From positions 62,001-126,000 of the forward strand of contig NZ_JBFNXJ010000010.1 in assembly GCF_040812015.1 (NCBI RefSeq): a stretch of 64,000 nt of DNA, in the 5' to 3' direction. Source of the stretch: Chitinivorax sp. PXF-14. GTDB lineage: Bacteria > Pseudomonadota > Gammaproteobacteria > Burkholderiales > SCOH01. Below the pieces are notes generated by a model. It saw nothing but the letters and a program-made list of their open reading frames with translations. It had not been told where the DNA came from and did not search any database. The translations under genes were made by a program, and so were the position numbers. This document shows positions 5,273-53,412 of the stretch, piece by piece. The stretch's first letter is position 1, and each line of letters starts with the position of its first letter.

Positions 5273-5443
5273 GAAGAACGATAACCGCGATCCGCGAGAA
5301 AGGAGACGCTCCCACCGGGAAGGAGAGGACGCAAAAAAGTGAAGGAAAACGGCAGGGGCGCTAATAAAAAAATCAATGTTCCGTTTTTCTGGATGGCCGA
5401 CACCACAAACAACGGCCGTCTATTTATCACTTCGGAGGGTGAC

Positions 5444-6715
5444 ATGATTCAACGATTCAAACTCGCTACAACGGTTGCTGCTGTGGCAGCTGCGCTGGTA
5501 GCTCAGGCTGCTTCGGCGGCACCTGTGGATTTCCATGGCTACATGCGCTCGGGTGTCGGTTCGTCCAACAAGGATGGCAAGCAGACCTGCTTCCAGCTGC
5601 CTGGCGCGTATGCCAAATACCGCCTGGGCAACGAATGCGAAACCTACGGTGAACTCGGCTTCGACGTGGATGCCTGGAAGGCGGCATCCGGCGATGGCTA
5701 CATGAAGCTGCACGTCATGGAAGCCTATGTTGCCAACCAGAATCGTGACTGGGAAGGCACCAAGGACAACACCGCCGATTTCGCGCTGCGCCAGGCCTGG
5801 GCAGAAGCGGGCGGCTGGGGCCAGGGCATGCTGGCGACGGCCAAGCTGTGGGCCGGCAAGCGCTTTTATCAACGCCACGACGTCCATATCAATGACTTCT
5901 ACTACTGGGACAACAGCGGCCCCGGTGCAGGTATCGAAGACATCGACCTTGGCTTCGGCAAGCTCAGCTATGCCTACCGCCGCAATGCCGCACAGAGCGG
6001 TGCCGCCGTACCAAGCGCGCCCGCCCAATGGCAGGTGCCGGATGATGGCAAGACCATCACCAGCAACGATATCCGCCTGAGCGGCGTCGGCGTGAACCCT
6101 GGCGGCAGCCTCGAATTCGGCGTGGACATCAAGTCGCAGAATAACCGCGACGGCGTGGCACACGGCGACAACGGCTTCATTGCTACGGTAGAACACACCC
6201 AGAACGGTTTCCTGGGCGGCTTCAACAAGCTCGCACTGCAATACGGCAAGGGCCCGGGCAGCAACCTGGTCGCGGCCTACCCTGACTTCGACGCCAAGAG
6301 CGACAAGAAGTCGTGGCGCGCCGTCGAGCAGTTCGTGTTCGAGTCCGGCAACTGGAACGGCATGGGCACCATGGTCTATCAAGACCAGAAAGACAACTAC
6401 ACTTGGTTCTCCGCCGGTGTACGCCCTGTCTACCACTTTAACGACATGTTCAGCCTGGCGACTGAAGTCGGCTACGACCAAGTGAAGCCTGACGGCGGCA
6501 GCAAGCGCAATCTGTGGAAGATGACGATTGCGCCGCAAATTTCGGCTGGCAAGAGCTTCTGGGCTCGCCCGACCCTGCGCATGTTCTACACCTACGCCAA
6601 GTGGAACGACGAAGCGCGTGACCAGTGGGGCGGTGTAGCCGGCGGTACCGGCGGTGTCTTCGGCAACGCCACCAGCGGCAGCACCTACGGTGCACAAGTC
6701 GAAGCCTGGTGGTAA
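5444..6715 (+). CDS. lamB: Maltoporin-type carbohydrate porin
   Basis: Outer-membrane channel for maltodextrins. The 423-residue protein begins with a signal peptide (MIQRFKLATTVAAVAAALVAQAASA, cleavage before APVDF). It continues with the LamB N-terminal pattern DFHGYMRSGVGSS and a CFQLPGAY...GNEC cysteine pair, and ends in the aromatic EAWW typical of porins. The ATG at 5444 has a strong site, GGAGGGTGAC, directly upstream; longer reading would add a non-signal leader. It lies after eda and before the GH13 enzyme and ABC importer, matching a maltodextrin uptake role. A good terminator follows. Confidence 0.92.
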   Translation: MIQRFKLATTVAAVAAALVAQAASAAPVDFHGYMRSGVGSSNKDGKQTCFQLPGAYAKYRLGNECETYGELGFDVDAWKAASGDGYMKLHVMEAYVANQNRDWEGTKDNTADFALRQAWAEAGGWGQGMLATAKLWAGKRFYQRHDVHINDFYYWDNSGPGAGIEDIDLGFGKLSYAYRRNAAQSGAAVPSAPAQWQVPDDGKTITSNDIRLSGVGVNPGGSLEFGVDIKSQNNRDGVAHGDNGFIATVEHTQNGFLGGFNKLALQYGKGPGSNLVAAYPDFDAKSDKKSWRAVEQFVFESGNWNGMGTMVYQDQKDNYTWFSAGVRPVYHFNDMFSLATEVGYDQVKPDGGSKRNLWKMTIAPQISAGKSFWARPTLRMFYTYAKWNDEARDQWGGVAGGTGGVFGNATSGSTYGAQVEAWW

Positions 6716-6767
6716 GCCAGACTTAGCCGTCAAGCAGTTTCCTTCTTAAGCTCCTCCCAGAGGGTTG

Positions 6768-6809
6768 GCGGGGGCGGGTAACGATCTCCGCCCGCTCCCC
6801 GCTTTTTTT
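6768..6809 (+). terminator. Intrinsic terminator after lamB
   Basis: GCGGGGGCGGG (6768-6778) pairs with CCCGCTCCCCGC (6791-6802), leaving one bulged base, and is followed by seven T residues. It ends or attenuates the edd-eda-lamB transcript. The alpha-glucosidase-malK-malE group therefore needs its own promoter or read-through. Confidence 0.85.
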
Positions 6810-6816
6810 CCCCAGC

Positions 6817-6827
6817 GTGCAATGCAC
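6817..6827. promoter_or_regulatory. Short palindrome upstream of the alpha-glucosidase gene
   Basis: GTGCAATGCAC is two 5-base inverted halves around a central A. It lies just after the lamB terminator and 52 bases before the GH13 start codon. Position suggests an operator for the mal genes, but no regulator is encoded nearby and the repeat is short. Confidence 0.25.
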
Positions 6828-6878
6828 TGGGCCCGACTCTGGCATACCGGTCCCAATGGATTGCATGAAGGTTTTTCG

Positions 6879-8501
6879 ATGAACGTTACATCCCAAAATT
6901 GGTGGCGCGGCGGCGTGATCTACCAGATCTACCCGCGCAGTTTTGCCGACAGCAACAACGACGGCATCGGCGATTTGCCCGGCATCATCGGCAAGCTGCC
7001 CTACATTGCCTCGCTCGGCGTCGATGCCATCTGGATCTCGCCATTCTTCAAGTCGCCGATGAAGGATTTCGGCTACGACGTATCCGACTATTGCGATGTC
7101 GACCCGATGTTCGGTTCGCTCGCCGATTTCGATCGCCTGGTCGCCCGCGCCCACGAGCTCGGCCTCAAGGTGGTGATCGACCAGGTGCTGTCGCATTGCG
7201 CTGACCAGCACCCGTGGTTCAAGGAAAGCCGCGCCAGCCGCGACAATCCGAAGGCCGACTGGTATGTGTGGGTGGACGCGAAAGCCGATGGCACGCCGCC
7301 CACCAACTGGCTCAGCGTGTTCGGCGGCTCGTCCTGGCAGTGGGATTCACGGCGCAAGCAGTATTACCTGCACAACTTTCTCGTCAGCCAGCCGGACCTG
7401 AACTTCCACAATCCGGCAGTGCAGGACGCGATGCTCGACAGCATCCGCTTCTGGCTCGAGCGCGGCGTCGACGGCTTCCGCTTCGACGCGTGCAACTTCC
7501 ATTTCCACGACAAGCAGCTGCGCGACAACCCGCCGGCCGCCAGCCGTGACACGACGACGGTGTCGGCCGACAACCCCTACGGCTACCAGCGCCATCTGTA
7601 CGACAAGACCCAGCCCGAAAACCTGGCCTTCCTCAAGCGCGTGCGCGCACTGCTCGACCAGTATGGCGCGGCCAGCGTGGGCGAGGTCGGCGACGACGAT
7701 TCGCTGTCCGTCATGGCCGCCTATACGGCCGGTGGCGACAAGCTGCACATGGCTTACAGCTTCAATCTGCTGACGCCCGAGTTTTCCGCGGCCCATATCC
7801 GCGACCAGGTCGAACAGCTCGAAGCCAAGATCGGCGATGGCTGGGGCTGCTGGTCGATCGGCAATCATGACGTGGCGCGCGTGATGACGCGCTGGGGCAA
7901 GGGCGAGACTTCGCCCGAGCTGGCCAAGGTGCTGCTGGCGGTGGAGTGCAGCCTGCGCGGCAGCGTGTGCCTGTACCAGGGCGAAGAGCTGGCGCTGACT
8001 GAGGCTGACATCCCGTTCGAGCTGCTGCAGGACCCCTACGGCATTACTTTCTGGCCCGAATTCAAGGGGCGCGATGGTTGCCGCACGCCGATGCCGTGGC
8101 AGCACGCTGCCGCGCATGGCGGCTTCAGCACCGTCCAGCCCTGGCTGCCGGTGCCGGCCGAGCATCTGGCGCGTGCCGCCGACGTGCAGGAGTTCGACAT
8201 GAAGTCCGTGCTCAATTTCTTCCGTGCCTTCCTGCGCTGGCGCAAGACCCAGCCGGCGTTGATCGAGGGCGACATCCGTTTCGTCGATGCCCAGCCCGAG
8301 GTGCTCGCGTTCGAGCGCGAGCTCGGTGGGCATACCGTGTTCGCCTGCTTCAACCTGTCGGCGGCGCCGCAGCGCCTGCGCGTGCCGGCGGGTTGCGAAG
8401 CCGCACCGATAGCGGGCCATGGCTTCGCCAGCCAGATCGAAAACGGGGAAATCGCATTGCCGGCCCACTCGGCGTTTTACGCAACACTCAAGCGCGCGTG
8501 A
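6879..8501 (+). CDS. GH13 alpha-glucosidase (maltodextrin hydrolase)
   Basis: Cytoplasmic glycoside hydrolase family 13 enzyme of 540 residues without a signal peptide. It is expected to release glucose from imported maltose and maltodextrins. Sequence blocks are WWRGGVIYQIYPRSFADSNNDGIGD at the N-terminus, region I VVIDQVLSHCADQHPWF, region II GVDGFRFDACNFHF with the nucleophile Asp, region III ASVGEVGDDDS with the acid/base Glu, and region IV IGNHDVARVMTRW. Region I has Ser where most GH13 members have Asn. The ATG at 6879 follows GAAGGTTTTTCG. malK starts 23 bases after the stop, so both are probably cotranscribed. Confidence 0.92.
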   Translation: MNVTSQNWWRGGVIYQIYPRSFADSNNDGIGDLPGIIGKLPYIASLGVDAIWISPFFKSPMKDFGYDVSDYCDVDPMFGSLADFDRLVARAHELGLKVVIDQVLSHCADQHPWFKESRASRDNPKADWYVWVDAKADGTPPTNWLSVFGGSSWQWDSRRKQYYLHNFLVSQPDLNFHNPAVQDAMLDSIRFWLERGVDGFRFDACNFHFHDKQLRDNPPAASRDTTTVSADNPYGYQRHLYDKTQPENLAFLKRVRALLDQYGAASVGEVGDDDSLSVMAAYTAGGDKLHMAYSFNLLTPEFSAAHIRDQVEQLEAKIGDGWGCWSIGNHDVARVMTRWGKGETSPELAKVLLAVECSLRGSVCLYQGEELALTEADIPFELLQDPYGITFWPEFKGRDGCRTPMPWQHAAAHGGFSTVQPWLPVPAEHLARAADVQEFDMKSVLNFFRAFLRWRKTQPALIEGDIRFVDAQPEVLAFERELGGHTVFACFNLSAAPQRLRVPAGCEAAPIAGHGFASQIENGEIALPAHSAFYATLKRA

Positions 8502-8524: not shown

Positions 8525-9646
<1,122 letters not shown>

Positions 9647-9754: not shown

Positions 9755-10957
<1,203 letters not shown>

Positions 10958-11078: not shown

Positions 11079-12692
11079 ATGCGCTTGCAGGATATTCCCC
11101 CCGGCCAGCAGGGTGAGCTGGAGAGGCCGCAAGGCCCTAGTTTTGGTGGTGTGACAGGCATGAAAGTCAGGTCTTACAGTAAATGGCTGGTACGCGGCGG
11201 CTTGCTTGCGCTGCTGTTGGCATCGCTCTACGCCGTGGTGATGGTCTACAGTGCGGGCCAGCCGATGCTGGCGCTGAGCGTGCTGGCGGCGATCGGCGCG
11301 GCCGTGTTCGTCTATTCCTCGCCCAGGATGTATGCCTACCGCTACCTGTTCCCGGGTATCGCGGCGGCCATCGTGTTCGTGCTGCTGCCGCTGGTGTATA
11401 CCGTGGCCATCGGCTTTACCAATTACAGCTCGAAGAACCTGCTGTCCTTCGAGCGTGCAACGCAATACCTGCTCGACGAGACCTACAAGGCCGAGGGCGA
11501 GAGCTATGCCTTCTCCCTGCATGCCGACGGCAATGCCTACCGCATCCGTCTCGAAGACAGCCAGAAGGGCAACGTCTTCGTGACCGAAGCGCTGGCGCTG
11601 AAGAAGGCCGAGCCGCTGACGATCCCCGCGATTCCGTTCGATACCGCCAGGGTGGTGCTCGGCGAGCCCGTCCAGCTGCGCGAGCTGATCAAGCTGCAGG
11701 GCGCGCTCAAGGCGGTCTCGGTGACCTTCCCCGATGGCCGTGGCGCGTCGATGTCCGGCCTGCGCGAGTTCTCGCCTGTGCACAAGCTGTATGAAAAACA
11801 GGCCGACGGCTCGCTCAGGAACCAGGAAAGCGGCACCGTGCTCAAGCCCAATTTCAAGACCGGCTTCTACGAAGCGGCCGACGGCACGCAGCAACAGCCC
11901 GGCTTCAAGGTCGGCATCGGCGGCGCCAACTTCGTCCACATCTTCACCGACCCGGCCTTCCAGGAGCCGTTCATCCGCATCTTCCTGTGGACGGTGGCGT
12001 TCTCCGCGCTGACGGTGCTGTTCGCGCTGACGGTCGGCATCGTGCTGGCCGTGGTGCTGAACTGGGAGGCGTTGCGCTTCCGCATGGTTTACCGCACGCT
12101 GCTGTTCCTGCCCTACGCGGTGCCGGGCTTCATCTCGATCCTGGTGTTCAAGGGCCTGTTCAACCAGAGCTTCGGCGAGATCAACCTGATTCTCGACGCG
12201 CTGTTCGGCGTCAAGCCGGCGTGGTTCTCCGACCCGTTCCTGGCCAAGGTGATGATCCTGATCGTCAATACCTGGCTCGGCTACCCGTACATGATGGTGC
12301 TGTGCATGGGCCTGATCAAGGCGATCCCGGCCGATCTGTACGAAGCCTCGGCGATTGCCGGCGCCGGGCCGCTGACCAACTTCTTCAAGATCACGCTGCC
12401 GCTGATCATCAAGCCGCTGACGCCGCTGCTGATCTCGAGCTTCGCCTTCAACTTCAACAACTTCGTGCTGATCAGCCTGTTGACGGCCGGCCGGCCGGAC
12501 TTTCTCGATACCAAGGTGCCGGCAGGCACCACCGATCTGCTGGTGTCCTACACCTACCGCATCGCGTTCGAGGATTCGGGCCAGAACTTCGGCCTGGCGG
12601 CGGCGATCTCGACCGTGATCTTCGTGATCGTGGCGATCCTGTCGCTGGTCAACCTGCGGCTGACCAAGGTAAATCAGGCCGAGCCGCGATAG
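11079..12692 (+). CDS. malF: Maltodextrin ABC transporter permease MalF
   Basis: Inner-membrane permease of the maltodextrin importer, 537 residues. The N-terminal third has several membrane segments, followed by a large periplasmic P2 domain (about residues 125-300) and a C-terminal permease core. The core has the EAA-type loop ADLYEASAIAGAGPLTNFFKITLPLI that docks onto MalK. The P2 domain is characteristic of MalF rather than generic sugar permeases. The ATG at 11079 follows TTGGAGTCGGT. An in-frame ATG at 11160 would start nearer the first membrane helix but has a poor binding site. Confidence 0.93.
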   Translation: MRLQDIPPGQQGELERPQGPSFGGVTGMKVRSYSKWLVRGGLLALLLASLYAVVMVYSAGQPMLALSVLAAIGAAVFVYSSPRMYAYRYLFPGIAAAIVFVLLPLVYTVAIGFTNYSSKNLLSFERATQYLLDETYKAEGESYAFSLHADGNAYRIRLEDSQKGNVFVTEALALKKAEPLTIPAIPFDTARVVLGEPVQLRELIKLQGALKAVSVTFPDGRGASMSGLREFSPVHKLYEKQADGSLRNQESGTVLKPNFKTGFYEAADGTQQQPGFKVGIGGANFVHIFTDPAFQEPFIRIFLWTVAFSALTVLFALTVGIVLAVVLNWEALRFRMVYRTLLFLPYAVPGFISILVFKGLFNQSFGEINLILDALFGVKPAWFSDPFLAKVMILIVNTWLGYPYMMVLCMGLIKAIPADLYEASAIAGAGPLTNFFKITLPLIIKPLTPLLISSFAFNFNNFVLISLLTAGRPDFLDTKVPAGTTDLLVSYTYRIAFEDSGQNFGLAAAISTVIFVIVAILSLVNLRLTKVNQAEPR

Positions 12693-12868: not shown

Positions 12869-13759
12869 ATGGCCGTAGTTCTCGATAAATCGCATCGCTG
12901 GCGCGTGCTGGCTGCCCATGTGGGGGTGATCGCCTTCATCGCGCTGATCATGTTCCCGTTCCTGATGATCCTGTCGATCAGCCTGCGTCCGGGCAACTTT
13001 GCCACCGGCAGCATTATCCCCGAGACCATCAGCTTCGAGCACTGGAAGCTGGCACTCGGCATGTCCTACCAGAACGCTGACGGCCTGCTGATCGAGCCGC
13101 CCTTCCCGGTGCTGCGCTGGCTGTGGAACTCGATCAAGGTCGCCACCATCTCGGCGTCGGTGATCCTGCTGCTGTCGACCACCAGCGCCTACGCCTTCGC
13201 GCGCATGAAGTTCCGCTTCAAGCAGCAGACGATGACCGCGCTGATGCTGATGCAGATGTTCCCGGCGGTGCTGGCGCTGGTGGCGATCTACGCCATCTTC
13301 GACCAGATCGGCACCTATGTGCCCTGGCTCGGTATCGACAGCCACGGCTCGCTGGTGCTCGCCTACGCTGGCGGCATCGCCATGCATATCTGGACCATCA
13401 AGGGTTACTACGACACGATCCCGGTCGAGATCGAGGAGGCGGCCAAGGTGGACGGCGCCACGCCGTGGCAGGCCTTCCGCTACGTGCTGCTGCCGATGGC
13501 GCTGCCCATCCTGATGGTGGTGTTCCTGCTCGCCTTCATCGGCTCGATCATCGAATACCCGGTCGCCTCGGTGCTCCTGCACGAGGAAAAGAATCTCACG
13601 CTGGCCGTCGGCTCCAAGCTTTTCCTCTACCCACAGAAGTATATGTGGGGCGATTTCGCCGCCGCCGCCATCCTGTCTGGCCTGCCGATCACCGTGGTGT
13701 TCCTGATCGCGCAGAAATGGATGATCGCCGGGCTCACCTCGGGCGGCGTGAAGGGCTGA
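12869..13759 (+). CDS. malG: Maltodextrin ABC transporter permease MalG
   Basis: Second inner-membrane permease of the importer, partner of MalF. The 296-residue protein starts with a cytoplasmic stretch and a first membrane helix ([20 protein letters not shown]). It ends in [20 protein letters not shown], a C-terminal tail like that of E. coli MalG, which reaches into MalE. The EAA loop [19 protein letters not shown] is intact. Start ATG follows GTGAGGAGCCATC. Followed 77 bases later by the small PUD protein. Confidence 0.94.
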
Positions 13760-13836
13760 TCGCTAGTTATCCGGCAAGGGCAATAACCACAATAACAATA
13801 AGAACATCGATATCGACCATCCTGAGGAGTGATGAA

Positions 13837-14280
13837 ATGCTGAGCAAACGTAACTTCGTGAAACTGATCCTGGGCGCGGTATTGGCGTCGAACGCGGCAT
13901 TCGGCCTGGCGGCGGACCTGCCGGACGACAGCGTGGCGATCCACTACCACCGTCCCGACGGCAAGTACCAGGATTGGGGCGTCCACCTGTGGCGCCGGGC
14001 CGGTGGCTCGCCCGACCTGCCGCTGGAAGGCATCAGCTGGGGCTCGCCGATGATGCCGAGCGGCGAGGACGACTTCGGCGTGTTCTGGCAGCGCAAGGTG
14101 GCCGAGTTCGGCAAGGATGGCAGGGTCTACTACATCATCCACAAGGGCGAGCGCAAGGACCAGCTCGGCCGCGACATGGACTTCGACCCGAAGAAGGCGC
14201 GCGAGGTGTGGGTGGTGTCCGGTGACAAGAACATCTACTTCTCCAAGGAAGAGGCCCTCAAGGCCATTCCCAAGCAGTAA
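13837..14280 (+). CDS. Secreted stand-alone pullulanase-associated (PUD/CBM41-like) protein
   Basis: Protein of 147 residues with a signal peptide (MLSKRNFVKLILGAVLASNAAFGLAA). Almost the entire mature part is one domain: VAIHYHRPDGKYQDWGVHLW, then GISWGSPMM, FWQRKV, YYIIHKGERKDQ and VWVVSGDKNIYF. This pattern matches the PUD/CBM41 module that precedes the catalytic region of pullulanases and binds alpha-glucans. The pullulanase at 50353 has the same start ([18 protein letters not shown]). Here there is no catalytic domain. Position directly after malG suggests a periplasmic maltodextrin-binding accessory. Start ATG follows TGAGGAGTGATGAA. Function is inferred. Confidence 0.85.
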   Translation: MLSKRNFVKLILGAVLASNAAFGLAADLPDDSVAIHYHRPDGKYQDWGVHLWRRAGGSPDLPLEGISWGSPMMPSGEDDFGVFWQRKVAEFGKDGRVYYIIHKGERKDQLGRDMDFDPKKAREVWVVSGDKNIYFSKEEALKAIPKQ

Positions 14281-14288
14281 GCACGGAT

Positions 14289-14309
14289 GGCCGCCCCGCC
14301 GGGGCGGCC
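14289..14309 (+). terminator. GC-rich hairpin after the PUD gene
   Basis: GGCCGCCCC and GGGGCGGCC pair perfectly around GCC, nine bases after the PUD stop codon. It lacks a T tract, so it may be a weak terminator or a 3-prime stabiliser closing the mal operon. Confidence 0.55.
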
Positions 14310-14346: not shown

Positions 14347-15225
14347 ATGGAGCAGCAGTTTTCCCGATTGATCCTTGGTTCGTGGCGCGTACGCGATTGG
14401 GGCCGCACACCGGCAGAGCTCGCCGATTTCTTCAGCGCCTGCGCCGATCTCGGGCTGACCAGCATCGATTTTGCCGACATCTATGGCGACTACGAAGCCG
14501 AAGCCGCCTGTGGCGCGGCCTTTGCACTGCGGCCCGGCTTGCGTCGGCGCCTGCGCTTCATCGGCAAGTGTGGCATCAAGCTGACCTCGGCCAAGCACCC
14601 GGAGCGCAGGCTCAACCATTACGACACGCGGCGCGGCCATCTGATCGCCGCCGCCGAGCAGACCCTGATCAATCTCGGTACCGATCATCTCGATACCCTG
14701 TTGATCCATCGCCCCGATCCGCTCATGGATGCCGACGAGGTGGCCGAAGCCTTCACCGTACTGCAGCGTGCGGGCAAGGTGCGCAGTTTCGGGGTGTCGA
14801 ACTTCACGCCGTCGCGGCTCAAACTGCTGCAGTCGCGGCTACCGTTCCGGCTGGTCGCCAACCAGGTCGAGGTGTCGCTGCTGCATGTCGAGACGCTCTA
14901 CGACGGCACGCTGGACCAGTGCCAGCGCCTCGGCATCGTGCCGCAGGCCTGGTCGCCGCTCGGTGGCGGCGCGCTGTTCGACGATAGCCCGGCCCGTGCG
15001 CCCTTGCGCGCGATGCTGGCGCAGATCGGCGAAGAACTCGGTGGCGCGACGCCGGCCCAGGTGGCGCTGGCCTGGCTGCTTGCCCACCCGGCCCGCATCC
15101 ACCCGATCATCGGCAGCGGCAAGCTCGACAGCATGCGCCAGGCGGCGCGCGCGCTGGATCTGCGGCTGGATCGCGAACAATGGTTCCTGCTGCTGCGCGC
15201 GGCAGTCGGCCATGATGTGCCCTAG
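14347..15225 (+). CDS. Aldo/keto reductase, YdhF-like
   Basis: NAD(P)H-dependent oxidoreductase of the aldo/keto reductase superfamily, 292 residues. Close resemblance to E. coli YdhF shows in LILGSWRVRDWGRTPAELADF, SIDFADIYGDYEAEAACG (catalytic Asp and Tyr), KCGIKLTS (Lys), TDHLDTLLIHRPDPLMDADEVAEAF (His), GKVRSFGVSNFTPS and IIGSGKLDSMRQA. The physiological substrate of this group is unknown. Start ATG at 14347 was chosen because homology begins there. It lies between the mal genes and gap, so a role in sugar metabolism is possible but unproven. Confidence 0.88.
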   Translation: MEQQFSRLILGSWRVRDWGRTPAELADFFSACADLGLTSIDFADIYGDYEAEAACGAAFALRPGLRRRLRFIGKCGIKLTSAKHPERRLNHYDTRRGHLIAAAEQTLINLGTDHLDTLLIHRPDPLMDADEVAEAFTVLQRAGKVRSFGVSNFTPSRLKLLQSRLPFRLVANQVEVSLLHVETLYDGTLDQCQRLGIVPQAWSPLGGGALFDDSPARAPLRAMLAQIGEELGGATPAQVALAWLLAHPARIHPIIGSGKLDSMRQAARALDLRLDREQWFLLLRAAVGHDVP

Positions 15226-16824: not shown

Positions 16825-16849
16825 CCAAAGAGTGAGGGTGACAATACCA

Positions 16850-18064
16850 ATGAAAACCGTAGCAAACGGTCGCGTCCGGCTCCTGGCCGGCGCAATGTGT
16901 TGTGTGCTGGCGCAAGGCGCGCAGGCCTGGGACAACGGCAAGCTGCTGATCTGGATCAACGGCGACAAGGGCTACCGTGGCCTGCAGAAGGTCGGCGACG
17001 ATTTCACCAGGAAAACCGGCATCCCGGTCAAGGTCGAACATCCGGACGACGCCACCGGCAAGTTCACGCAGTTCGGCGGCACCAAACAGGGCCCCGATAT
17101 CTGGATCTGGCCGCATGACCGGCTCGGCGAATGGGTCGGCAAGGGCTTGCTGTCTCCGGTGAAGGTGCCCGACAGCCTGCGCGACAGCGTGGTCAGCGTC
17201 GGCTGGGAGGCATTCGCGGTCGATGGCAAGACCTGGGGCTACCCCATCGCGGTCGAGGCCATCAGCCTGATCTACAACAAGGACCTGCTGCCCAACCCGC
17301 CCAAGAGCTTCGAAGAGCTGCCCGAGCTCGACAAGAAGCTCAAGGCCCGCGGTATCCGCGCCATCGGCTGGGAATACACCAGCCCTTACTTCTCATGGCC
17401 CTTGCTGGCCGCCAACGGTGGCTTCATCTTCCCGCGCGACATCAACGGCAACTACCTGTCGGGTGAGACCGGGGTCAACAAGCCGGGGGCGATTGCCGGC
17501 CTGGAAGTGTTGGCCAGCCTGGTCGACAAGGGTGTGCTTCCGGCCAACGGCATGCCCTACGCCGATGCCGAGCGCGCCATGCAGGACGGCAAGCAGGCCA
17601 TGTTCATCTCCGGCCCCTGGGCCTGGGATGGGCTGCGCGACGCCAAGGTCAACTTTGGCATTGCCCCGCTGCCGACGGTGAAGGGCAAGCCGGCCAGGCC
17701 CTTCGTCGGTGTGCTGGGGGCGATGGTCGCCGCCCACAGCCCGAACCAGAAGGCCGCGACCCAGTTCATCGAGGGCTTTCTCGAACAGCCCGCCGGCCTG
17801 CGCAAGATGAACGAAGACGTGCCGATCGGCGTGCCCGCCCACAAGGCATTCTTTGGCGAGCTGTACAACGACGCCAATATCCGCGCCTCGATGGAGGCGG
17901 TCAGCGCGGGCAAGCCGATGCCGCACAATCCCGAGATGAACCGCTTCTGGGGCGCGATGGCGATGGCCCTGCAGCAGACGACGACCGACGCACCCGATCG
18001 CAAGAAGCCCAAGGAGGCGCTCGATCTGGTCGCCAAGGCCGTGGTCGGCAAGGACAAGCGCTGA
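16850..18064 (+). CDS. Second maltodextrin-binding protein (orphan MalE paralogue)
   Basis: Periplasmic binding protein of 404 residues with a signal peptide ending LAQGAQA. Mature sequence GKLLIWINGDKGYRGLQKVGDDFTRKTG and [19 protein letters not shown] are close to the malE product at 9755, as are IYNKDLLPNPPKSFEELPELDKKLK and PHNPEMNRFWGAMAMAL. The ATG follows GAGGGTGACAATACC; a GTG at 16832 is possible. No permease genes accompany it, so it probably delivers a different maltodextrin range to the same MalFGK complex, or serves as a sensor ligand carrier. Both roles are inferred. Confidence 0.9.
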   Translation: MKTVANGRVRLLAGAMCCVLAQGAQAWDNGKLLIWINGDKGYRGLQKVGDDFTRKTGIPVKVEHPDDATGKFTQFGGTKQGPDIWIWPHDRLGEWVGKGLLSPVKVPDSLRDSVVSVGWEAFAVDGKTWGYPIAVEAISLIYNKDLLPNPPKSFEELPELDKKLKARGIRAIGWEYTSPYFSWPLLAANGGFIFPRDINGNYLSGETGVNKPGAIAGLEVLASLVDKGVLPANGMPYADAERAMQDGKQAMFISGPWAWDGLRDAKVNFGIAPLPTVKGKPARPFVGVLGAMVAAHSPNQKAATQFIEGFLEQPAGLRKMNEDVPIGVPAHKAFFGELYNDANIRASMEAVSAGKPMPHNPEMNRFWGAMAMALQQTTTDAPDRKKPKEALDLVAKAVVGKDKR

Positions 18065-50064: not shown

Positions 50065-50352
50065 CACAACTACACGCGCCAGACGCCGGACCCGCGCGGC
50101 CAATGCCGCCGATGGCCGCGTGAATAGTCGCCAGCCAGCGGTGTTGGCGATGTCGCACGAAATATCAATTCGCCCATTTAGAGCAAAAGTACAATCCTTC
50201 GCCATGCGGGAGGCATCCGCATCCCGTTTGCCCGGTGAGGCCGGCGGGCCCGCCGCCCATAACCATTCCAATCCGGCGGCCCACGCACCGTGGCAATCAT
50301 CGCTCGTACCCCACAGCGCGCACTATCTGAGCCATATTCGAAGGAGGGTGAC
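50065..50352 (+). promoter_or_regulatory. Leader region of the pullulanase gene
   Basis: This 288-base spacer separates the AraC gene from the pullulanase gene. An AT-rich patch near 50155-50200 (GAAATATCAATTCG) is the likeliest promoter. A GGCGGGCCCGCC palindrome lies near 50242-50253. The ribosome site GGAGGGTGAC with ATGATT repeats that of lamB exactly. No open frame is supported. Confidence 0.45.
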
Positions 50353-53300
50353 ATGATTTCACAACACTGGCGTAGGCTCGGCAGCTGGCTGCCGGCGGCG
50401 CTGACAGCCGGCCTGATGGCCGCGTGCGGCGGTGGCGGGGGCTCCGACGGCGCCTCGTCGCCGGCCGGCACGGCAAACATTGCCGCCGCGACCATGCGCG
50501 TGCATTTCCACCGTACCCAGAACGACACGGCCGACTGGGGTGTGTACTCGTGGAGCGGCCCGCTCGCGCCGAAAACGGCATGGCCCGGCGATCGCATCAA
50601 GTTCGCCAGCAGCGACGGCTTCGGCGCCTATGTTGACATCCCGCTCAATGTGTCGGCGGGCAAGCTGGATTTCCTCGTCATCGACGGCAACGGCAACAAG
50701 AACTGCGGCAGCGACCAGCACGCGACGTTCAAATCCGACATCGCCAGCAAGGGCCAGGAAGTCTGGATGCTCGAGGGTGACTGCACGGTGTACGACCAGC
50801 AGCCGGCGATCAGCGTCGGCAGCCTGGGGCAGGCCAGGGCCATGTGGCTCGATACCACCACCATCGCCTGGCCCAGCGCGCCGGCCAGCGGTGCCAGCTA
50901 CCAGCTCTATTACGCGGCCAACGGCGGCATCAGCGCGAAGGCCGAAGGCGTCACCGGGGCGGATGGCGCGGTCGCGCTGCAGGTCGCCGGCGGCCTGTCC
51001 GACGCGCTCAAGAGCAAGTATCCCTACCTCGCCAGCGCCACCGCGCTGACGCTGGCCGACGGCTCGGCTGCCACGCTGAAGCCGCGCCTCAAGGGCCAGC
51101 TCGTCGTCGCCCAGTTCGACGCGAGCGGCAAGGTGGTCCAGGCCACCTCGCTGCAGGCCGCAGGCGTGCTCGACGCGCTCTATGCGACGGCGGCCCGGGG
51201 CAAGACGCTGGGCGTGAGCTTCGGCGCCGGCAATGCGCCGACCTTCGCGCTGTGGGCGCCGACGGCCAAGTCGGTCAAGCTCAATGTATTCCCCGAGAGC
51301 GGCGCCGCCGTCAGCGTGGACATGGTGGAAGACGGCAGCAGCGGTGTGTGGAGCTACACCGCCGCCGACGCGAGCTGGAGCAACGCGGCCTACTATACCT
51401 ACACCGTGAACGTGTTCTCGCGCGCCGCCAGCAACACGGTAGTCAGCAACACGGTGACCGACCCGTATTCGCTCAGCCTCAACGCCAACAGCCAGCGGAG
51501 CTTCGTCGCCAACTTGGCCGATGCGAGCCTGAAACCCACGGGTTGGGACGGCCATGCGGTGCCGGCGCTCGACGCGCCCGAGGACATCGCGATCTACGAG
51601 CTGCACGTGCGCGACTTCAGCATCAACGATGCGACCGTGCCGGCGGCCCATCAGGGCAAGTACCTGGCGTTCACCGACAGCACCAGCAACGGCATGAAGC
51701 ACCTCAAGCTGCTGCAGCAATCCGGGCTCACGCACGTTCAGCTGTTGCCGGTGTACGACATCGCCTCGGTCAACGAGGCCGGCTGCACCTCGCCCAGCGT
51801 GCCCAATGCGGCGGCCGACTCCGACCAGCAGCAGGCCGCCGTCTCGGCCGCCAAGGATACGGACTGCTTCAACTGGGGCTATGACCCGTACCACTACACG
51901 GCGCCGGAAGGCAGCTACGCGAGCGATGCCGGCAACGGCCGCGTGCGCGTCAAGGAATTCCGCCAGATGGTGAAGGCGCTGCACGACGCCGGCCTGCGCG
52001 TGACGATGGACGTGGTCTACAACCACACCTTCGCCGCCGGCCAGGACGACAAGTCGGTGCTCGACAAGGTGGTGCCGGGCTACTACTACCGCCTCGACAA
52101 CCAGGGTGCGATCTTCAACTCCACCTGCTGCGCCAATACCGCCGCCGAGAACGCGATGATGGCCAAGCTGATGATCGACTCGGTGAAGACCTGGGCGACG
52201 CAATACCAGGTCGACGGCTTCCGTTTCGACATCATGGGCCACCTGCCGCTCGACGCGATGCTGCAATTGCGCAGCGACACCGATGCCGCCGCCGGCCGCT
52301 CGCTGTATTACTACGGCGAAGGCTGGAATTTCGGCGAGGTCGCCAACGACGCACGCTTCAAGCATGCGGCGCAGGATAATATGGCCGGCACCGGCTACGG
52401 CACCTTCAACGATCGCCTGCGTGACGCGATCCGTGGCGGCGGCTGCTGCGACACCGGGGCCAGCCTGTTCAGGGGCCAGGGCTTCGCCAACGGCGTCTAC
52501 CTCGACCCGAACGGCCAGAGCACGCAGACCAGGGACGACCTGCTGCACCTGACGGACCTGGTCAAGCTCGGCATGGCCGGCACGCTGCGCGACTACGTGC
52601 TGACCGACAAGGACGGCGCCGCGAAGAAGGGCAGCGAGCTTGCCTACTTCGACCTGAAAGCCGGCTACACGGCCGACCCGCAGGAGTCGATCAACTACAT
52701 CGAGGCGCACGACAACCAGACGCTGTTCGACATCAACGCCTACAAGCTGCCGCAAACCACCAGCAAGGCCGACCGGGTGCGCGTGCAGAACCTCGGCACG
52801 GCGATCCTGACGCTGTCGCAAGGCATCCCGTTCTACCATGCCGGGCAGGAGCTGCTGCGCTCGAAATCGCTGGACCGCGACAGCTACAACTCGGGCGACT
52901 GGTTCAACCGGCTGTTCTGGGACTATTCCGCCAACAACTTCGGCGTGGGCCTGCCGGTGGCCGACAAGAACAGCGACAGCTGGGACCTGATGCGGCCGCT
53001 GCTGACCAACCCGCTGCTGCAGATGGGGGCGGGCGAGATCGTCACCAGCCGCGATGTGTTCCGCGACTTCCTGGCCGTCCGCAAGAGCTCGACGCTGTTC
53101 CGCCTGCGTAGCGGCAGCGACGTGATCAACCGTGTCGCGTTCCATAACAACGGCCCGTCGCAGGTGCCCGGCGTGGTGGTCGAAAGCATCGACGGCAGCG
53201 GCTACGCCGGCGCCGTCTGGAGCAGCGTGGTGGTGGTTGCCAACGCCGACAAGGCCGCCCACACGCTGAACGTGGATGCGCTGAAGGCCAGGACCTACAG

Positions 53301-53412
53301 CCTGCACCCGGTGCTGGCAGCCGGCAGCGATGCGGTGGTGAAGGGCGCCAGCCTGAGCAACGGCAGCATCAGCATCCCGGCACGCAGCGTGGCGGTGTTC
53401 GTCGCCAACTGA
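50353..53412 (+). CDS. Lipoprotein pullulanase, type I (GH13)
   Basis: Debranching enzyme cleaving alpha-1,6 bonds of pullulan and branched dextrins at the cell surface. The 1019-residue protein has a lipoprotein signal ending in [18 protein letters not shown]41 domain follows (about 45-150, [18 protein letters not shown]), then a CBM48-like region ([16 protein letters not shown]) and the catalytic barrel. The barrel has the pullulanase signature [17 protein letters not shown], region [12 protein letters not shown], region [14 protein letters not shown] (nucleophile Asp), region [12 protein letters not shown] (Glu) and region [14 protein letters not shown]. It supplies substrate to the mal importer at 5-18 kb. 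Confidence 0.95.

Follow-up and report, generated by a model that had tools for sequence, protein, structure and literature searches.

Maltose import is a textbook system, and its genes in Chitinivorax sp. PXF-14 raise a question: what might a PUD/CBM41 module, a domain normally fused to enzymes, be doing as a small exported protein of its own in a mal operon? An extra periplasmic binding protein beside malG is, to our knowledge, absent from the E. coli model. The reading we favor, to which we give a probability of roughly 0.55 from sequence and predicted structure, is that the protein would bind alpha-glucans in the periplasm as a soluble helper for maltodextrin uptake, in effect a carbohydrate-binding module (CBM) acting in trans. 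The genes concerned lie in a stretch of 64,000 nucleotides, called the window here, and are as follows.

5339-6715, forward strand: LamB maltoporin (PF02264, E 2.4e-114; open reading frame, true start unsettled)
6765-8501, forward strand: GH13 enzyme of the operon (PF00128, E 6.5e-120; open reading frame, true start unsettled)
8525-9646, forward strand: malK-like ATPase (Pfam domains TOBE_2 and OB_MalK)
9755-10957, forward strand: malE, maltodextrin-binding protein (NF007011, 556 bits, cut-off 291)
11079-12692, forward strand: malF permease (NF008232, 698 bits, cut-off 392)
12869-13759, forward strand: malG, maltose ABC transporter permease (NF008231, 488.6 bits, cut-off 261)
13824-13829, forward strand: GAGGAG, a likely ribosome-binding site, 7 bases short of the ATG of the PUD gene (by eye)
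13837-14280, forward strand: free exported PUD/CBM41 protein, 147 amino acids (open reading frame call, Pfam, predicted fold)
14290-14308, no strand: GC-rich hairpin with an 8-bp stem and no T run, just 3' of the PUD gene (by eye)
14347-15225, forward strand: aldo/keto reductase downstream of the PUD gene (PF00248, run on 14356-15225; start by eye)
50290-53412, forward strand: pullulanase with its own N-terminal PUD (Pfam; lipoprotein-like signal by eye)

The operon order is lamB, GH13, malK, malE, malF, malG, PUD. The PUD gene, an intact frame of 147 codons running from the ATG at 13837 to the TAA at 14278-14280, starts 77 bp downstream of the end of malG at 13759, and we infer that it is co-expressed with the mal genes. 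The hairpin beyond it, which was not among the predictions of the terminator scan, possibly marks the end of the mal transcript. The malK-like ATPase scored 543.3 bits against the MalK model NF008233, slightly below its cut-off of 568, and 480.7 bits against the UgpC model NF008653, above its cut-off of 432. A second MalE-like protein is encoded after gapA, at 16832-18064 of the window (NF007011, 461.9 bits, cut-off 291), and a MalE-like gene recurs at the same place in several relatives.

The earlier note on this DNA described a free exported PUD/CBM41 protein of about 120 mature residues directly after malG, and this description was borne out. A Pfam search placed PF03714 at residues 33-134 (E 2.8e-23; 83 bits against a curated cut-off of 25; profile positions 2-96 of 97) as the sole domain, with no other Pfam family, no NCBIfam family and no GH13 catalytic domain (PF00128) matching the protein at E ≤ 0.001. 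By eye, a putative signal peptide covers about residues 1-26, with its end near A25/A26; the mature protein would then have about 121 amino acids, and the cysteine of a lipobox is absent. By strict definition, a CBM is a module belonging to a carbohydrate-active enzyme. Since the 147 amino acids hold no domain besides the PUD, the product is better called a CBM41 domain protein than a CBM in the strict sense. In many relatives (L093, L099, L125 and others) one cysteine lies early in the domain and a second close to the C terminus, perhaps as a disulfide pair; both are missing from the window protein. The N-terminal SKRNFVK (window 13840-13866) looks like a twin-arginine export motif whose first residue is lysine, and Tat export was rejected because the motif is, by eye, missing from most relatives.

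Structure prediction gave no differing fold. An AlphaFold2 model built with ten free PUDs had a mean pLDDT of 84.1, with ten-residue blocks at 83-96 from residue 31 on and low values over the first 30 residues. With this model, Foldseek gave 12 matches at E ≤ 0.001, every one a pullulanase or pullulanase-CBM41 chain, the best of them 2j71 (E 4.4e-8). The top 11 rows from VIA-align were likewise such chains (Z 12.0-13.1), followed by a CBM25 at 9.2, with the Eubacterium rectale CBM41 (6az5) reaching only Z 8.4, under CBM25. Weaker matches from the two programs were to CBM25, CBM26, CBM20 and transthyretin-like folds. By sequence, two pullulanase chains came closest among solved structures, 2wan at E 8.2e-9 and 2j71 at E 9.1e-8. 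The window protein is thus predicted to have the CBM41 beta-sandwich fold, and its model is best matched by CBM41 modules.

Would such a domain still bind glucan? Conservation was read from 53 free PUDs, which remained of 59 after removal of six repeats with identical last 100 residues; L138 and L139, truncated at the ends of their contigs, were excluded from the conservation and tree sets. Fifteen positions are invariant in all 53 copies (Y37, R39, D41, W47, H50, W68, G76, G81, Y99, I100, H102, K103, G104, K107 and D113), and W52 is identical in 50, with F in the other three. Where the window protein has H50, W52, K107 and D113, the aligned Thermotoga maritima CBM41 has W, W, K and D; its glucan contacts we take to be W27, W29, K76 and D81. 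Three of these four putative contact residues are kept, and H50 replaces a T. maritima tryptophan, a histidine that may weaken the aromatic platform. The motif WGLHxW is also common among enzyme-borne PUDs. CBM41 modules bind alpha-1,4-glucans tightly, according to one report (PMC2582482).

Close pairs of free PUDs are under purifying selection. A dN/dS ratio was computable for 12 of 13 such pairs and ran from 0.03 to 0.65, with nine values below 0.3 (0.03, 0.04, 0.05, 0.07, 0.07, 0.07, 0.09, 0.14, 0.29, 0.31, 0.39 and 0.65), some pairs resting on few changes; the highest belongs to an Anaeromyxobacter pair. For the window protein and its family relative at L035, dS is saturated, and this pair stands outside the 12 ratios.

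How widespread the arrangement is depends on where one looks. Across the order, PF03714 matched in 16 of 399 genomes at E ≤ 0.001, 15 of them over the cut-off (own genome included), and MalG scored over its cut-off in 22. With one locus labelled per MalG genome, nine of the 22 mal loci have a free PUD directly 3' of malG (G000, the window, and G001, G479, G517, G553, G583, G628, G643 and G701). The other 13 MalG-bearing genomes have none at the mal locus fetched, which makes the free PUD gene dispensable; two genomes, G466 and G661, have two malG genes over the cut-off each, and one locus per genome was fetched. Neighbors were labelled by BLAST to the window proteins, and only a few by Pfam. 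Of five genomes covered from the organism's own family, three have a PUD, two of them (its own and G001) a free one, and among 60 relatives a PUD match was present in four, own genome counted. Class-wide, both a query with the protein and a search with PF03714 hit two of 369 genomes including the organism's own; the second match was weak with an internal stop in the former case and lay inside a 1502-amino-acid frame in the latter. Among 14 control genomes, PF03714 matched in one, T. maritima.

A scan of species genomes with two sequences returned 73 pattern matches and confirmed no relative. Repeated with a ten-sequence alignment, it returned 118 pattern matches at no fewer than 80 loci, its patterns being PUD peptides of the window type, so that it favors the free mal clade. 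Among the loci listed, 51 (L090-L140) hold a free PUD whose frame stops 1 to 10 codons past the domain (at L139 it is ended by the contig end), 28 hold a PUD in a longer frame of 494 to 2854 amino acids, and L144 has no open reading frame of 90 amino acids over the match. Some free-PUD frames extend upstream over malG and have an internal ATG with a signal-like stretch inside them. The earlier note had taken the gene after malG for a singular feature, and here the survey says otherwise: malG lies directly upstream of 43 of the 51 listed free PUDs, at gaps of -4 to 154 bp with start codons picked by script. Three further loci read malG-amylase-PUD (L133, L134 and L136), and in three more the order is malE-malF-malG, lamB, PUD (L123, L124 and L127). 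MalE, MalF and MalG at the latter three are only 29-38% identical to the window proteins, so the link of the PUD to maltodextrin uptake is more than one operon inherited whole. L138 begins at a contig end. With L135, Chitinimonas taiwanensis has two free PUDs of the mal type; this copy, the same protein as L040 8098-8607 and also in the mal clade, has no labelled mal gene nearby.

Hosts include Chitinimonas, Sphaerotilus, Rubrivivax, Caldimonas, Piscinibacter, Rhizobacter, Gallionella MAGs and Niveibacterium and, outside Pseudomonadota, many Geothrix (Acidobacteriota) and Anaeromyxobacter (Myxococcota). The two surveys overlap, as six loci of the species scan repeat loci of the order survey. 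With the same arrangement in many genomes, a genus-specific oddity is ruled out, and the free PUD is probably a conserved, mostly malG-linked family spanning three phyla, a conserved helper rather than a one-off.

Because a single PUD is normally fused to enzymes, the free copy might be the remnant of a broken pullulanase gene. In a tree of 53 free and 67 enzyme or fusion PUDs, the free copies split off with support 97/98, and their branch appeared in 98% of 200 bootstrap trees; a second tree, with seven rows added and the set of enzyme PUDs thinned, gave 99/95 and 100%. These trees rest on 114 columns with the root unplaced, near-identical enzyme PUDs were thinned, and the locus scan favors the free mal type. 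The mal-linked free PUDs form one clade apart from the pullulanase PUDs. A remnant is hard to square with one supported clade across three phyla, or with signal peptides of the proteins' own (by eye), invariant residues and low dN/dS in most pairs. Its probability is negligible, and on these grounds we consider a vestige ruled out.

Niveibacterium and Uliginosibacterium have free PUDs of another kind (L175 4876-5316, L176 4805-5299, L179 and L180). These four form their own small clade beside the pullulanase PUDs, and no mal genes were seen near them in the stretches fetched. Like the window protein, each is a single PUD with an export signal by eye; two have a lipobox by eye, whereas the window protein has none. 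Their separate clade indicates that free PUDs probably arose more than once.

In other proteins of related genomes, the PUD is the N-terminal part of a GGDEF protein (L044 7299-9374, reverse strand; L045 8453-10357, forward; L178 1167-3029, reverse; L182 2462-4273, forward; L183 2639-4609, forward). All five form one clade, three have a Pfam EAL match, and in L044 and L045 a signal peptide and a membrane helix lie, by eye, on either side of the PUD. To judge by their domains, they look like alpha-glucan-sensing cyclic-di-GMP proteins and are perhaps the more surprising find. One could imagine from them that the window protein, too, is a periplasmic maltodextrin sensor reporting to a regulator. 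We think this highly improbable: it is a free protein without a further domain, and no recurring sensor gene stands alongside among the neighbors that carry a label at the loci viewed.

A secreted-type GH13 gene adjoins the free PUD by script at 41 of the 51 listed loci, and at 42 when the amylase of L134, outside the script limits, is read in the locus. In many relatives it takes the place, 3' of the PUD gene, that the aldo/keto reductase has in the window. At L118, L121, L131 and L139, which have no adjoining amylase, the PUD gene is no more than 200 bases from a contig end, and at L127 the contig stops about 1 kb past it; L122 (Niveibacterium) has an aldo/keto reductase next to the PUD, not an amylase, at L123 and L124 the GH13 genes are on the opposite strand, and L135 is the unlinked copy. 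All three neighboring GH13 genes tested (L037, L041 and L123) contain PF00128. At L115 and L137 the amylase frame (the longest) overlaps the PUD stop by 4 bp, which suggests that the two are expressed in a coupled way. The recurring neighbor suggests that the PUD module acts in trans for the amylase. The secreted-type amylase gene is absent from the locus in the window and in L035, and the L037 amylase found in the organism's own genome only a weak, partial match (30%, E 2e-4), so the amylase partner is missing here. That the PUD is kept without it suggests that it serves MalE or the transporter too.

This last point might be taken further, with the PUD as a transporter subunit or adaptor that makes contact with MalE, or with MalFG on its periplasmic side, and lets more kinds of chain be accepted, glucan binding being only part of its role. 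Its place directly 3' of malG in most listed loci speaks for an adaptor, as does its retention in the window, L035 and Niveibacterium (L122), which lack an adjoining secreted amylase gene. An adaptor nevertheless seems rather unlikely to us, as an amylase stands between malG and PUD at three loci, the PUD follows lamB at three others, and the positions conserved most strongly look like sites of fold or putative glucan contact.

The earlier note had also suggested that the protein inhibits or activates the pullulanase, and regulation of, or competition with, a PUD-bearing pullulanase has some footing in the window itself: the genome has two PUDs over the cut-off, the free protein and that of the pullulanase 36 kb away. 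Eight of the nine order genomes with a free mal-linked PUD also encode a PUD within a long frame of enzyme size (the exception, G701, is 87% complete, and the long frame of G643 holds one TAG), and the same is true of several of 12 genomes that were chosen through their loci. Yet the free PUD is the only one in three of these 12 (Geothrix terrae, L093; Anaeromyxobacter oryzae, L123; Sphaerotilus mobilis, L098; completeness not given), which argues against a role tied to a PUD-bearing pullulanase; the other nine have 2 to 6 PUDs each. The mal-type free PUDs and the enzyme PUDs, moreover, lie in separate clades. PUD-less pullulanase-like enzymes may occur in the three sole-PUD genomes: an Acidobacteria locus laid out like that of Geothrix (L104) has a PUD-less pullulanase-like gene (GH13, CBM48 and SpuA_C by Pfam). 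As a general role, pullulanase modulation fits poorly and is improbable.

Among the roles that the earlier note offered, capture of alpha-glucans in the periplasm appears to fit best. The putative signal peptide, the predicted CBM41 fold, the kept putative contact residues and the position beside the mal genes suggest that the protein binds alpha-glucans in the periplasm for maltodextrin uptake. Under this reading, a separate, soluble CBM41 module would be exported to the periplasm, where it would bind alpha-1,4-glucan chains entering through the LamB porin and hold them for processing and hand-over. The recipient would be the secreted GH13 amylase encoded alongside in the relatives, and MalE and the transporter in the window genome.

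Several known systems invite comparison. The CBM41 modules of T. maritima PulA (2j71), Klebsiella PulA and streptococcal SpuA/PulA are of the same Pfam family and predicted fold, and that of T. maritima shares the W, K and D of W52, K107 and D113; the window protein differs in that it is not enzyme-borne, belongs to a separate clade, is encoded in a mal operon and has a histidine for one T. maritima tryptophan. SusE, SusF and similar Bacteroidota proteins are non-catalytic starch-binding surface lipoproteins with other folds that partner with SusC/D. As with the window protein, whose binding is a prediction, they have no enzyme activity and their genes accompany those for maltodextrin uptake; the window protein, in contrast, looks soluble and pairs with an ABC importer. 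MalM of E. coli, a periplasmic protein whose gene accompanies malK-lamB, is similarly a small exported accessory of a mal operon without a settled role; the window protein, for its part, matches PF03714 alone in Pfam-A. Searches of an open-access collection, read by title and the opening of the abstract, yielded no account of a free CBM41 in a mal operon, of its role or of its linkage to malG. The PUD family is already known, and databases presumably list the free proteins under this domain.

An additional periplasmic binding protein, conserved beside malG, would add a step between the porin and MalE, a step that could explain the handling of long or branched dextrins in some bacteria. Tentatively, the detached CBM41 might be a widespread co-receptor or glucan carrier for longer or branched dextrins, working with MalEFGK-type importers in at least three phyla and, in the window genome, with the transporter alone. 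If so, longer or branched maltodextrins would be taken up or trimmed beyond MalE's own range, and the window genome, its amylase partner absent, would represent the transporter-only form. The protein would, besides, give a clear example from nature of a carbohydrate-binding module at work unattached to any enzyme.
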